From: Bacteroidales bacterium
GTDB taxonomy: Bacteria > Bacteroidota > Bacteroidia > Bacteroidales > JAAUTT01
Assembly: GCA_025361285.1 (NCBI GenBank)
Contig: JANYAP010000158.1
Coordinates: 1-32,153, forward strand
Direction of reading: 5' to 3'
DNA: 32,153 bases
The notes beneath the pieces were generated by a model, which ran no database searches, had not been told where the DNA came from, and saw only the letters and a program-made list of their open reading frames with translations. A program made the position numbers and the translations under genes. Below are positions 27,072-31,909 of this stretch, one piece after another; within the stretch, counting starts at the first letter, position 1, and each line of letters begins with the position of its first letter.

Positions 27072-27665
27072 TTATCCAATCAATTTTTCAATTTTATCTT
27101 TATTACTTATAACATAAACAAATAGAAGAAAAAACAACAGAATGCATATCGGATTCAAAATAGTTGAAAACTGATGAAAAACTGAAGGTTTATCAGTGAT
27201 ATTAATAAATTTAATCAGTTCGTTAACGCACTGTATAAATGATATAAATACTAGCGACGACATTGCAATTAGCGAAATTCGTAACATCGTTGCTTTTTTA
27301 AGTAAATAGCTAACTGGTATTAGAACTAGCAAAATTCGCGATCCATAGTTCATAACTTGATCAATAGCAGGCATTAATCCAGCCGAGGCCGATGCAATGT
27401 TTATCGATGTTTTAGTTACTATATCGTAAATAGGAAAAATGATAGATATAAGTATTGCTATATTAATATTTTTTAATTGTGCTTTATTGGTTGTTTCGGT
27501 AGCTATAAAATAAAGAGTTAACAGAAGCGAGAAAAATGAAATAGTACTGGAAATTAATGAAATACTATCGAAAGTTTGAGTACATAAGCCTAAAATACTA
27601 GGAATCATGTTAACCGTAAAGGATAGAGAACAAACAAATAAAGGAAGTAATAGAAGTTTTTTCAT
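27072..27665 (-). CDS. Unrecognised integral membrane protein
   Basis: A 197-residue protein with five or six hydrophobic segments (about 3-22, 30-55, 67-85, 108-125, 130-150, 172-190) and a positively charged Lys-rich C-terminus. It has no motif I can match to a family. It follows the ExbD-type gene on the same strand after 44 bases, so it may belong to that motor operon, possibly as an accessory membrane component; this is inference only. The downstream hairpin at 27025-27056 can end its transcript. Confidence 0.6.
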   Translation of the reverse strand: MKKLLLLPLFVCSLSFTVNMIPSILGLCTQTFDSISLISSTISFFSLLLTLYFIATETTNKAQLKNINIAILISIIFPIYDIVTKTSINIASASAGLMPAIDQVMNYGSRILLVLIPVSYLLKKATMLRISLIAMSSLVFISFIQCVNELIKFINITDKPSVFHQFSTILNPICILLFFLLFVYVISNKDKIEKLIG

Positions 27666-27709
27666 AAGTAAAGTGTTTTGAAGTTAGTATTATAAAAGTA
27701 AAAGGTATT

Positions 27710-28105
27710 CTATTCTTTTTCGGTTGCCAAAATCATTTTAACCCCAACGCGTTTACCAATTTCGAGTATGTCAACTAAATCCTGAATAGTTAAATGATTG
27801 TCGGCACGCAAAACGATAGTTAAATCGTTAATTTTCTTCTTTTTATCTGTTAAAGCCAGTTCAATATCTGCAGGCGCAACCATTACCTGATCGAGATAAT
27901 ACTTTTTATCGGCAGTAATTGATAGCGTTATCTGTTTTTTCGATAGCGTTTGGTTCGAACTAGCTCTTGGAAGCATCAGCTTAATAACGTTGGGGTTAGC
28001 AAACGTGGCAACAATAAGAAAAAACAATAGCAGAAAAAACATTATGTCGTTCAGCGATGCCGTGGCTACTTCGGCCTTAAAATCGTGGCTACGTTTAATT
28101 TTCAT
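27710..28105 (-). CDS. ExbD/TolR-family proton-channel subunit
   Basis: A 131-residue protein with a short basic cytoplasmic start, one transmembrane helix (about 18-37, SLNDIMFFLLLFFLIVATFA) holding the conserved Asp20 that carries protons, and a periplasmic domain. With the ExbB/TolQ partner it forms an inner-membrane motor driven by the proton gradient. It starts one base after the partner's stop. No tonB or tolA is next to it. Confidence 0.9.
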   Translation of the reverse strand: MKIKRSHDFKAEVATASLNDIMFFLLLFFLIVATFANPNVIKLMLPRASSNQTLSKKQITLSITADKKYYLDQVMVAPADIELALTDKKKKINDLTIVLRADNHLTIQDLVDILEIGKRVGVKMILATEKE

Positions 28106-28106
28106 A

Positions 28107-28799
28107 CTATTTCCTATTCTCTTTCACACTATTTAAAACGTCGAACGATTCAGCTTCAACGAAAGTAATAAATCTGTCGAGTTTCATATTAAGCACGTGG
28201 TAACCACAATAGGCAATAACGCCAACAATTAAACCACTTCCACTCGAAATCATTTTTTCGTATAAACCGCCAGCAATAATCCCAATGCTAATATTGTCGG
28301 TTACCGAAATATTGTAAAAAATTTTAATAATACCCGAGATAGTGCCTATAAAACCCAACATAGGTGCTACACCAGCTATAATACCTAAATAGTTAATATT
28401 TCTGTTAAGCTTCGCAACCTCAATGTTACTAACGTTTTCAATCTCGCTTTCAACTTCCTTAACGGGATGATTAATATTTTTAAGAAAATGCGTAAAAATA
28501 GCGCGATAAGCTCCCGACCCTGCTTGTAAAGCGGTTAAAGCTTTATCGGGTTCGTTGTTTTTTACGTGAAGTTTAAAATTCGCTCGTACCGAGGCAATAA
28601 CTTTTGTGCCTTTACTAATAACAAAGTACTTTTCGGCTATAAGGTAAATGGCTATAATAGAAAGTATTCCAATTGGTATTAGAATTATACCACCTTTCAT
28701 AATTAAATCGAACACCGAAAGATGCTGGTTAGCTACATCTTCAACCTTTAAGTTATTTAAAGTTTGTGGAATTTGTAAAATAGTGTTTATTGATATCAT
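28107..28799 (-). CDS. MotA/TolQ/ExbB-family proton-channel protein
   Basis: A 230-residue protein with the three-helix layout of the family: a first helix (about 32-53), a cytoplasmic loop rich in charged residues, then the paired helices around YLGIIAGVAPMLGFIGTISGIIKIF and SGLIVGVIAYCGYHVL. It is the larger subunit of an ExbB/ExbD-type motor and may power TonB-dependent uptake, Tol function or gliding-type processes. It is the first gene of a minus-strand operon with ExbD-type and an unrecognised membrane protein, and has the best promoter match in the window. Confidence 0.9.
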   Translation of the reverse strand: MISINTILQIPQTLNNLKVEDVANQHLSVFDLIMKGGIILIPIGILSIIAIYLIAEKYFVISKGTKVIASVRANFKLHVKNNEPDKALTALQAGSGAYRAIFTHFLKNINHPVKEVESEIENVSNIEVAKLNRNINYLGIIAGVAPMLGFIGTISGIIKIFYNISVTDNISIGIIAGGLYEKMISSGSGLIVGVIAYCGYHVLNMKLDRFITFVEAESFDVLNSVKENRK

Positions 28800-29081: not shown

Positions 29082-30041
29082 ATGGCACGAAAAATAATTC
29101 ATTTCGATTGGGCATTAAAAAAATTGCTGCGCCAAAAAGCCAACTACGAAATACTCGAAGGTTTTTTGAGTGTGCTTTTAAACCAAGAAATTACAATTGA
29201 TAACATTGTTGACTCGGAAAGCAACAAAGAACACAATACCGATAAATACAACCGTGTTGATGTTTTTGCCCAAACCACAGCTGGCGAATTAATTATTATT
29301 GAATTACAAGTTGATAGCGAAGTTGACTATTTCCAACGTATGGCTTATGGTACAAGTAAGGCCATTACACAATATATTGAAGAAGGCGACAAATACATTA
29401 AAGTAAAAAAGGTATATTCGGTAAATATCGTTTATTTCGATTTAGGGCAAGGCAAAGACTATGTTTACCATGGCATCACCGAATTTATAGGTTTGCATAA
29501 TAACGATGTTCTGCAACTATCGAAACAACAAAAAATGGCTATGCCCCATACCACTGTAGCCAATATTTTCCCCGAATATTACGTATTACGCGTTAACGAT
29601 TTTAACGACATAGCCAAGGATAGTTTGGACGAGTGGGTTTATGTGCTCAAAAACTCGGCGGTTGAAGACAGTTTTAAAGCCAAAGGCTTAAACAAAGTTA
29701 AAGAAGCCCTGTTATACGAGAATATGACCGATGCGGAAAAGCAGAATTATCAAGCATTTATGGGACACCTACGTAAAGCCAAGAGTACCCTATTTACTGC
29801 AAAATTAGAGGGTGTTATGGAAGGACGAATTGAAGGGCTAATGGAAGGACGATTAGAAGGCGAACAAACAAAAGCATACATTATTGCATTAAAAGTTTTA
29901 CGCAAAGGTTTTAATTTAAATGATGTTGCCGAACTTACCGAATTACACCCTGAAACCATTGAAAAACTAAAAAAGCTATTAGACGAATTCGGCATCAACG
30001 CCGAGAATCATCTAGGTAATGTGCCGTTAAAATTGCACTAA
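29082..30041 (+). CDS. Rpn-family PD-(D/E)XK nuclease (recombination-promoting nuclease/putative transposase)
   Basis: A 319-residue protein of the Rpn group, annotated historically as transposase-like. The PD-(D/E)XK core is visible: Asp60 in YNRVDVFA and the ExQ pair Glu74/Gln76 in ELIIIELQ, with a leading block FDWALKKLLRQKANYEILEGFL. Near the C-terminus (about residues 244-265) lie tandem MEGR-type units (EGVMEGRIEGLMEGRLEGEQ), the hallmark low-complexity linker of this family, and an alpha-helical end. Family members promote RecA-independent recombination and some act in phage defence; this protein's role is unknown. DUF2797 starts 16 bases downstream and may be co-transcribed. Confidence 0.85.
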   Translation: MARKIIHFDWALKKLLRQKANYEILEGFLSVLLNQEITIDNIVDSESNKEHNTDKYNRVDVFAQTTAGELIIIELQVDSEVDYFQRMAYGTSKAITQYIEEGDKYIKVKKVYSVNIVYFDLGQGKDYVYHGITEFIGLHNNDVLQLSKQQKMAMPHTTVANIFPEYYVLRVNDFNDIAKDSLDEWVYVLKNSAVEDSFKAKGLNKVKEALLYENMTDAEKQNYQAFMGHLRKAKSTLFTAKLEGVMEGRIEGLMEGRLEGEQTKAYIIALKVLRKGFNLNDVAELTELHPETIEKLKKLLDEFGINAENHLGNVPLKLH

Positions 30042-30057
30042 TTACAAAACAAAAACT

Positions 30058-30855
30058 ATGGATTATAGAGGTGTTATTTCGAAAATGCATGTTGAACTAT
30101 ACAACCCAGTTAAATACCATTTGACTGTTGGCGAAAACAAAGTTTACATGAATGAGCTGTTAAACAACGAAATATCAATTACTTGGCTCGAAAAAATACA
30201 TTGCCTTAATTGTGGTAAAATCACTCGCAAATCGTTTGGGCAAGGGTACTGCTACCCATGTTTTGCTTCGATACCCGAAACCGACGATTGTGTGCTTCGA
30301 CCCGAACTATGCCGTGCCCACGAAGGTATTGCGCGCAGTATGGATTGGGCTACTGAATATTGTTTGCAAAACCATTTTGTGTATTTGGCCCTTTCAAGTG
30401 CGCTAAAAGTTGGAGTTACCAGATGTCACCAAATACCCACTCGTTGGATCGACCAAGGAGCTTCGAAAGCAATTAAACTGGCGCAAACACCAAACCGATT
30501 TACAGCTGGTATAATCGAAGTATTTCTTAAAAATCATTTAACCGATAAAACCAATTGGCGGAATATGCTAACCAACAAAATTGCATGCGATACCGATTTG
30601 CTAACAGCGAAAAATAATATTGTCTCGCTCCTGCCTGCCAGCTTTCAACAATACGTTTGTATCGATAACATAATTACTCACATTGAATATCCGCACATAT
30701 CTTTTCCCATAAAGGTAACAAGTATCGACATGGAAAAGAACCCATCAATTAGCGGTAAACTCACCGCCATTAAGGGTCAGTATCTTATTCTGAATGACGA
30801 AAAAGCTATAAATATTCGTAAATACGGCGGCTATTTGGTGGAGGTAAGTGTATAG
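30058..30855 (+). CDS. DUF2797 protein with zinc ribbon and GIY-YIG-like block
   Basis: A 265-residue protein. An N-terminal zinc ribbon, CLNCGK (C49, C52) with YCYPCF (C65, C68), is followed by C78 and C85. Residues 107-135 read FVYLALSSALKVGVTRCHQIPTRWIDQGA. The VYL-x7-KVGVT pattern with a downstream Arg129 and Glu154 resembles the core of GIY-YIG nucleases, so a nuclease or related fold is plausible but unproven; the order and spacing suggest a degenerate or modified active site. It follows the Rpn nuclease gene closely and ends one base before the convergent rsmH. DUF2797 proteins have no known function. Confidence 0.75.
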   Translation: MDYRGVISKMHVELYNPVKYHLTVGENKVYMNELLNNEISITWLEKIHCLNCGKITRKSFGQGYCYPCFASIPETDDCVLRPELCRAHEGIARSMDWATEYCLQNHFVYLALSSALKVGVTRCHQIPTRWIDQGASKAIKLAQTPNRFTAGIIEVFLKNHLTDKTNWRNMLTNKIACDTDLLTAKNNIVSLLPASFQQYVCIDNIITHIEYPHISFPIKVTSIDMEKNPSISGKLTAIKGQYLILNDEKAINIRKYGGYLVEVSV

Positions 30856-30856
30856 C

Positions 30857-31909
30857 CTACCCCCTAATAGCCCAACGCAATTTTGCTGAGCTTGCACGAG
30901 GGTTAGCGTTACATTCCTTTGCCGATGGTCGGATTGGCTCCGCCGCAATTTCGCTGTAAATACCTAGGTTTAGCATGGTTTGAAACGATTTTTTTACGCG
31001 CCTATCCTCGCCCGAATGAAACGACAGAATTGCCACACGTCCGCCTTCCGCTAAAGCCAATGGAAGTTTTTCGAGAAATTTATCCAATACCCCAAATTCA
31101 TTATTCACTTCAATTCGTAATGCCTGAAAGCATCGCCTACAGGCTTTTATAATCTCATCGTTTCGAATATTTATGGGAAGAAAATCGATCGCCTCCTTAA
31201 TTATCTCTTTCAACTGTGATGTTGTTTCAATAACTGTTCCGCTAACCATTTTAGCAATAATTGTTGTTGCAATTGCTTCGTAATAAGGTTCATCGGCATT
31301 TTCTTTAAAAAGTGTTTCCAGCTTATGTTTCGAAACACTTTTTAAAAATGCAGCAGCCGATTTTCCGCTCTTGGGGTTAAGCCTCAAATCCAAAGGGCCT
31401 TCAACTTTAATCGAAAAACCCCTTTCGGGATTATCAATTTGCATCGACGAAACACCCAAATCGGCTAATACAAAATTCAAAAGTCCAGCCTCGGAAGCAA
31501 TTTGGTCTATCTCCGAAAAATTCATCTTTCTAACCACCAACACATCCTCCCCAAAACCCAGCGAAGCCAAACGATCTCTGGTACGGGGTAACTCGAACGG
31601 GTCAACATCGGTTGCATATAGTAAACCACCAGGTACTAAACATTTTAGTATTTCGTGGCTATGCCCGCCGTACCCTAATGTAGCATCAAGCCCAACTTGC
31701 CCCGGAGAAACTTTTAGAAAATGCATAATTTCGTTAACACAAATGGGTCGATGCATACCCGCAGGAGTGCGACCTTGCTCAATTACCTTGATTACGTCAT
31801 CGGCGTACTGTTCGGGTTGTAGCTCTTTGTACTTATCTTTAAACGTTTTAGGGTGTGTTCCCTTGTATCGTATGCGACGCGGAGGTATCGATTGATTATT
31901 ATCCATCAA
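30857..31909 (-). CDS. rsmH: RsmH-type 16S rRNA cytosine-N4 methyltransferase with N-terminal extension
   Basis: RsmH (MraW) methylates N4 of C1402 in the ribosomal P site using S-adenosylmethionine. Core motifs are present: DATLGYGGHS (75-84) for SAM binding, DVDP, DLGVSSMQIDNPERGFS, LRLNP, CRRCFQALRIEVNNE, ILSFHSGEDRRVKK, and ANPRASSAKLRWA. At 350 residues it is about 40-50 longer than usual because of a basic extension before MHRPI (residue 52), beginning PPRRIRYKGTHPKTFKDKYK. Several family positions also differ, for instance SGED for the usual SLED. It has no mraZ, ftsL or mur neighbours, so it may be a second RsmH-like enzyme besides the one in the division cluster. Confidence 0.85.
   Translation of the reverse strand: MMDNNQSIPPRRIRYKGTHPKTFKDKYKELQPEQYADDVIKVIEQGRTPAGMHRPICVNEIMHFLKVSPGQVGLDATLGYGGHSHEILKCLVPGGLLYATDVDPFELPRTRDRLASLGFGEDVLVVRKMNFSEIDQIASEAGLLNFVLADLGVSSMQIDNPERGFSIKVEGPLDLRLNPKSGKSAAAFLKSVSKHKLETLFKENADEPYYEAIATTIIAKMVSGTVIETTSQLKEIIKEAIDFLPINIRNDEIIKACRRCFQALRIEVNNEFGVLDKFLEKLPLALAEGGRVAILSFHSGEDRRVKKSFQTMLNLGIYSEIAAEPIRPSAKECNANPRASSAKLRWAIRG

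Follow-up and report, generated by a model that had tools for sequence, protein, structure and literature searches.

The 32,153-nucleotide stretch of DNA analysed here (the window), from a contig of a Bacteroidales bacterium, carries a gene whose product, as judged from its sequence, is a real, second and distinct paralogue of RsmH (MraW), the 16S rRNA m4C1402 methyltransferase. The window protein and its clade are named R2 in this work, and ordinary RsmH is named R1. We see about an even chance that R2 is an active SAM-dependent N4-cytosine methyltransferase, which works on rRNA beside the housekeeping RsmH and yields a product other than its m4C1402.

Gene, domain and companion RsmH

The minus-strand open reading frame 30857-31909 was confirmed as present in the window. 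Directly after the TTG listed as its start (31909) comes an ATG at 31906 and, since several relatives begin at the position of that ATG in the alignment, the R2 gene most likely extends over 30857..31906 on the minus strand (stop codon 30857-30859) and encodes a protein of 349 amino acids. When the window gene is compared with two relatives, codon positions 1, 2 and 3 differ by 0.23, 0.10-0.13 and 0.59, respectively, which resembles the pattern of a gene kept for its protein. The G+C content of the gene is 42.7%, that of the window 36.0%.

The RsmH core was found to be kept, in agreement with the original prediction. PF01795 matched residues 51-346 with 229.5 bits (cut-off 27) over profile positions 3-306 of 309, i.e. 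at full length, and TIGR00006, the NCBIfam equivalog model for RsmH, matched the same residues with 213.2 bits against a cut-off of 154.3; with the latter model the genome's ordinary copy reaches 299.9 bits. Chance is ruled out for these matches. Among solved sequences, the RsmH-type proteins of Thermus and Thermotoga are the nearest, followed by METTL15 and E. coli RsmH. An AlphaFold model of R2 built on a 70-row alignment (mean pLDDT 90.2, pTM 0.87) was superposed on four RsmH-type entries (T. thermophilus, T. maritima and E. coli) with VIA Z scores of 34.0-34.9 and an rmsd of 1.5-1.9 Å over 278-287 residues, and on human and mouse METTL15 entries with Z scores of 24.6-33.4. According to this model, the window protein is a full PF01795/RsmH-fold methyltransferase.

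The same genome, which is 97.7% complete, contains a second PF01795 gene on another contig (C180), flanked by genes that Pfam confirmed as MraZ and FtsL-like, in an mraZ-rsmH-ftsL cluster. Its product is 31% identical to the window protein. The possibility that the window gene is a sole-copy RsmH in a new place, which would have contradicted the original prediction of a second, specialised paralogue, was therefore rejected. The original prediction had also described the gene as devoid of mraZ, ftsL and mur neighbours; this holds for the visible side, only 247 bases separating the gene start from the window end, which, going by the length of locus L002, is also the contig end, so that the upstream side is out of view. 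In 65 of 67 genomes R1 was found beside R2, namely in the window genome, the one in which the mra-cluster position of R1 was checked, and in 18/18, 13/13 and 33/35 genomes of three samples; the listings behind the 18/18 and 33/35 counts share no coordinates. Of the 18, G687 has R1 split into two fragments that lie at contig ends, and G701 has a broken R2. Two genomes depart from the joint occurrence: G1180 (68% complete), with R2 alone, and G1293 (99% complete), with two R2 copies (C17:2628-3518 and C49:2050-2940) and no R1 found. Gaps in an assembly can account for a missing R1, since 2 of 60 relatives are without any PF01795 match. The pattern of G1293 might also be expected if R2 could replace R1 and, given both exceptions, R2 might be capable of the function of RsmH.

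Group-specific residues and the N-terminal arm

The two types were compared using 36 R2 rows (the window protein and 35 relatives, a broken gene at locus L018 being excluded) and 69 R1 rows (the window genome's own copy, 17 and 14 copies from two of the co-occurrence samples, and 8 of 30 and 29 further loci). The R1 set omits one fragment and includes G920, a genome without R2; 35 class-sample genomes with R2, obtained later, lie outside the 36-row comparison. At thirty-eight positions the two groups share one residue, present in at least 95% of the rows of each, and these positions cover most of the residues that line SAM in METTL15, the mitochondrial 12S rRNA m4C methyltransferase, according to passages of PMC10828496 and a mapping done by hand from the match of R2 to the solved sequences. 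The SAM-site residues D74, T76, G78, G81, H82, D100, D149 and S153 are kept in R2, and a further one, Q156, is invariant across 18 aligned rows.

Other positions separate the groups. SAM-binding motif I, DATLGYGGH (residues 74-82; 31661..31687, minus strand), has Tyr79 where ordinary RsmH has Gly, and the motif FHSGEDRR (residues 296-303; 30998..31021, minus strand) has Gly299 in place of the Leu of HSLED. The latter change, SGED for SLED, had been noticed in the original prediction and turned out to be group-specific, HSGED being present in 36/36 R2 and 1/69 R1 and HS[LI]ED in 68/69 R1. Likewise, G[YF]GGH occurs in 36/36 R2 and 2/69 R1, and GPLDLRL in 36/36 and 0/69. Eight positions of the domain are R2-specific, each in 35 or 36 of the 36 rows: Tyr79, Glu105, Phe145, Leu174, Leu176, Asn203 (35/36), Asp205 and Gly299; Tyr79 and Gly299 occur in all 36. 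The residues that they replace are 88-100% conserved in R1. Ile55 and Gly72 of R2 also differ from R1 in like manner. By the hand mapping, Tyr79 corresponds to METTL15 Ser99 and Gly299 to METTL15 Leu324; passages of PMC10828496 describe Ser99 as contacting the SAM carboxyl group.

The N-terminal extension (residues 1-50, RR.RY.GTHPK...KYKE...TPAG; 31757..31906, minus strand), hereafter the arm, is not found in ordinary RsmH. The original prediction of about 50 basic extra residues was right as to length, the arm being conserved in all 36 R2 rows, and overstated as to charge: the first 48 residues contain 10 K/R and 7 D/E (net +3), and over the 36 rows the net charge of the arm has a median of +4 and a range of +1 to +9, so that by composition the arm is only mildly basic. 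Eleven of its positions never vary in R2 and align mostly with gaps in R1, and KYKE is present in 36/36 R2 and 0/69 R1. Helices are predicted with moderate confidence at residues 22-27 and 31-43. In the 70-row AlphaFold model the block means of pLDDT in the arm are 60-71; in an earlier model from 18 rows the arm was poor. The trypanosome entries 9hny and 6sg9 align from R2 residue 6 with an rmsd of 4.2-4.3 Å, the arm being modelled at low confidence.

R2 thus resembles RsmH/MraW in fold, SAM site, identity (about 31-40%) and full-length domain, and differs from it by the conserved arm of about 50 residues, by Tyr79, Glu105, Phe145, Asn203 and Gly299, and by being outside the mra cluster, extra to RsmH and in a separate clade. 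METTL15, as described in passages of PMC10828496, is similar to R2 in fold, in SAM residues and in having sequence before the methyltransferase domain; unlike R2, it keeps HSLED. The structural alignments with human and mouse METTL15 begin at R2 residue 51 or later and thus show no relation between the two N-termini.

The likeness to METTL15 raises the question of whether R2 could be mainly a ribosome assembly or structural factor, with methylation secondary. The title of PMC11197891 describes the catalytic activity of METTL15 as not required for its part in ribosome biogenesis, passages of PMC9200640 give METTL15 a structural role, and the conserved arm of R2 could be a docking element. We consider this explanation quite unlikely, since the SAM-pocket and shared catalytic residues are retained across the 36 R2 rows and would be unneeded for a structural role alone.

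Distribution, phylogeny and genomic surroundings

Searches with the N-terminal profile found R2 in 2 of 295 genomes of the order sample, i.e. that of the window and another from its genus, and in 36 of 395 genomes (14 of 197 genera) of the class sample. Among 299 Bacillota genomes around G698 there were 15 matches, including a weak one in G920 that overlaps the genome's own ordinary rsmH and was neither taken as R2 nor counted. These prevalence counts include the centre genome of each sample. In a phylum sample of 395 genomes searched with the full protein, no other genome exceeded 45% identity among the matches listed, so that R2 seems to be rare or lacking there. Eight of its genomes (G062, G065, G067, G089, G238, G331, G392 and G449) gave two query matches each, which may stem from a split gene, from contamination or from yet another paralogue. 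Other phyla were hardly sampled, through one genome-contig scan with patterns from the window protein, which gave 18 loci with Bacteroidota or Bacillota titles only. R2 is thus patchy in Bacteroidota and Bacillota; one of its carriers is Rhodocytophaga aerolata KACC 12507 (locus L006), a harmless strain that can be cultured. The only other R2 found in the window's genus, at L018 5001-6048 (G701; same coordinates as G003, C6:1277-2168), is 80% identical and interrupted, with 218 amino acids followed by a restart; it is a decaying gene or an assembly error.

A tree of both types, which the original prediction had proposed, was built by quick maximum likelihood from 105 rows. R1 and R2 lie each on one side of a branch with an SH-aLRT of 100, this being the only support measure used and the tree being flagged for two long branches and 15 rows of odd composition. 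The window protein does not group with ordinary RsmH and falls within the separate R2 clade. Together with the companion gene and the co-occurrence, this supports the original prediction of a second, specialised paralogue. With R1 as outgroup, the 14 Bacteroidota R2 form one group (support 99) nested among the Bacillota R2. Identities were compared in 22 genomes with both types (13 Bacteroidota and 9 of 17 Bacillota). Between the phyla, the median identity is 63.0% for R2 versus 41.6% for R1, R2 being higher in 117/117 pairs; it is also higher in 75/78 pairs within Bacteroidota and in 36/36 within Bacillota. The high cross-phylum identity, together with the Bacteroidota branch nested inside Bacillota, suggests transfer of R2 between phyla. 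Slower evolution of R2 would raise identity too, yet alone it would leave the nesting and the patchiness unexplained.

In the window, a DUF2797 gene (30058..30855, plus strand) is convergent with R2 and adjoins it, in a cluster not common to the other loci with R2 that were compared. The gene beyond it, second from R2 (29082-30041), is Rpn-family PD-(D/E)XK nuclease/transposase-like. Further away, 27072-28799 holds an ExbB/ExbD-type pair followed by a 197-amino-acid protein for which Pfam gave no match at E ≤ 0.01. No conserved neighbour family of R2 was found in 37 loci (the window and 36 others), surveyed by simple open reading frame calls, many of them cut by contig ends and one with a broken gene. 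A conserved operon partner was rejected, the commonest neighbour family occurring in 6 of the 37 loci (8 genes) and several others in 3 loci each. As R2 accompanies RsmH in nearly all genomes and is without conserved neighbours, it is best read as an add-on to RsmH rather than a replacement.

A defence gene was rejected as well: PADLOC gave a weak partial mad2 match only (25.9 bits, E 1e-6), which we read as the shared methyltransferase fold. In the phage collection four records match R2 at 54-58%. Two of them, MT835555.1 (L115) and MT835514.1 (L116), carry, by eye, chromosomal-looking aroB-, lspA-, lexA-, feoB- and gltX-like genes; they are probably bacterial contigs, and on these two records the reading as a phage gene was set aside. 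In the viral contig L132, R2 lies between a lysis-type and an integrase-type stretch (by eye), which speaks neither for nor against a phage origin. The reading as a plasmid gene was also rejected, two plasmid records with R2 being of 2.6 Mb and 252 kb. The first, NZ_CP154629.1 (L113), is a 2.63-Mb Acetoanaerobium noterae "plasmid" with two RsmH-type places and looks like a chromosome. In the second, NZ_CP143948.1 (L114) of Agathobacter rectalis, metK, a UDP-N-acetylglucosamine carboxyvinyltransferase gene and pflB lie near R2.

Substrate and significance

The differences in the active site and at the N-terminus make another rRNA position or another target plausible for R2, while C1402 itself is a possible target. 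The C1402 region is normal in all 6 R2-bearing genomes with a full-length 16S rRNA gene and also in the R2-negative genome G002; no 16S match was found in the window genome. Genes of the TP_methylase family, which is that of RsmI and was left unsorted, are present in 33 of 34 genomes, 31 of those 33 with R2, and the only genome without one is the R2 carrier G697. From the normal C1402 region and these genes, the usual C1402 substrate is in place and so, probably, is its partner enzyme. C1409 was rejected as a shared target: the corresponding position, numbered by motif, reads A in 3/3 R2-bearing Bacteroidota with full-length 16S.

R2 may instead be an isozyme, maintained as a back-up or as a regulated copy, that makes the same m4C1402 in different conditions or at a different step of 30S assembly. 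Consistent with this are the shared family, fold and SAM pocket, the intact C1402 region in the six readable R2-bearing genomes and the genome with R2 twice and RsmH not detected. We hold it to be somewhat unlikely, as R2 accompanies RsmH so regularly and as the group-wide coordinated changes and the long stem between the groups exceed what a recent spare copy would display.

A non-rRNA substrate (tRNA, mRNA, DNA or protein) was also considered. The abstract of PMC6863780 connects MraW with DNA methylation in E. coli O157:H7, and the more distant fold matches include tRNA methyltransferases. Set against this, the close solved relatives, i.e. RsmH, METTL15 and a trypanosome mitoribosomal small-subunit protein, are of or on the small subunit, and DNA m4C methylase families were unmatched at E ≤ 0.01 in Pfam and NCBIfam. 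Such a substrate is therefore improbable.

In the preferred reading, a product distinct from m4C1402, R2 would act on the ribosomal RNA of an assembling or assembled subunit; this placement follows E. coli RsmH, which acts on the assembled 30S according to passages of PMC5053481. SAM would be bound as in METTL15 and RsmH, the conserved arm (RR.RY.GTHPK..KYKE) would dock R2 on a particular surface of rRNA or of a ribosomal protein, and Tyr79, Asn203 and Gly299 would adapt the pocket to a different cytosine or to a C1402 that already carries a methyl group, the product then differing from that of the housekeeping enzyme. More tentatively, R2 could make m4C, or add a second N4-methyl group to give m4,4C, at an rRNA position or state outside the reach of the known enzymes, as a lineage-variable mark spread by transfer, the Gly of HSGED and the arm reading the new acceptor. 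Passages of PMC11708014 count m4,4C among the bacteria-specific nucleosides and name no enzyme for it; passages of PMC11190147 describe S. aureus C1412 as N4,O2'-dimethylated, not N4,N4. Points against the preferred reading are the modest pLDDT of the arm, the two genomes (G1293 and G1180) that show R2 and no ordinary RsmH, the lack of a neighbour pointing to a process, and the acceptance of R2 as RsmH by TIGR00006.

Second RsmH copies have been named before. In clostridia, UniProt names such as RSMH1 and RSMH2 are used for them, and the R2 of A. rectalis is annotated rsmH. Planctopirus limnophila likewise has a second PF01795 or COG0275 gene; its two mraW genes are both non-essential, and the passages of PMC12283558 report no separate function. 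A survey of bacterial RNA methyltransferases lists RsmF and SPOUT paralogues, its passages naming none for RsmH (PMC4119055). Among the papers listed in searches of one open library, none concerned a second RsmH type in its title or abstract opening, subscription papers being mostly outside the search.

Databases name R2-type proteins RsmH, and one curated model gives both types one name and one target. If the target of R2 differs, an entire subgroup would be misannotated as RsmH, and an unmapped rRNA mark would be present in some Bacteroidota and Clostridia. If it is the same, R2 would be a duplicate, apparently transferred and so far without explanation, of an enzyme that ranks among the most conserved of those modifying rRNA.
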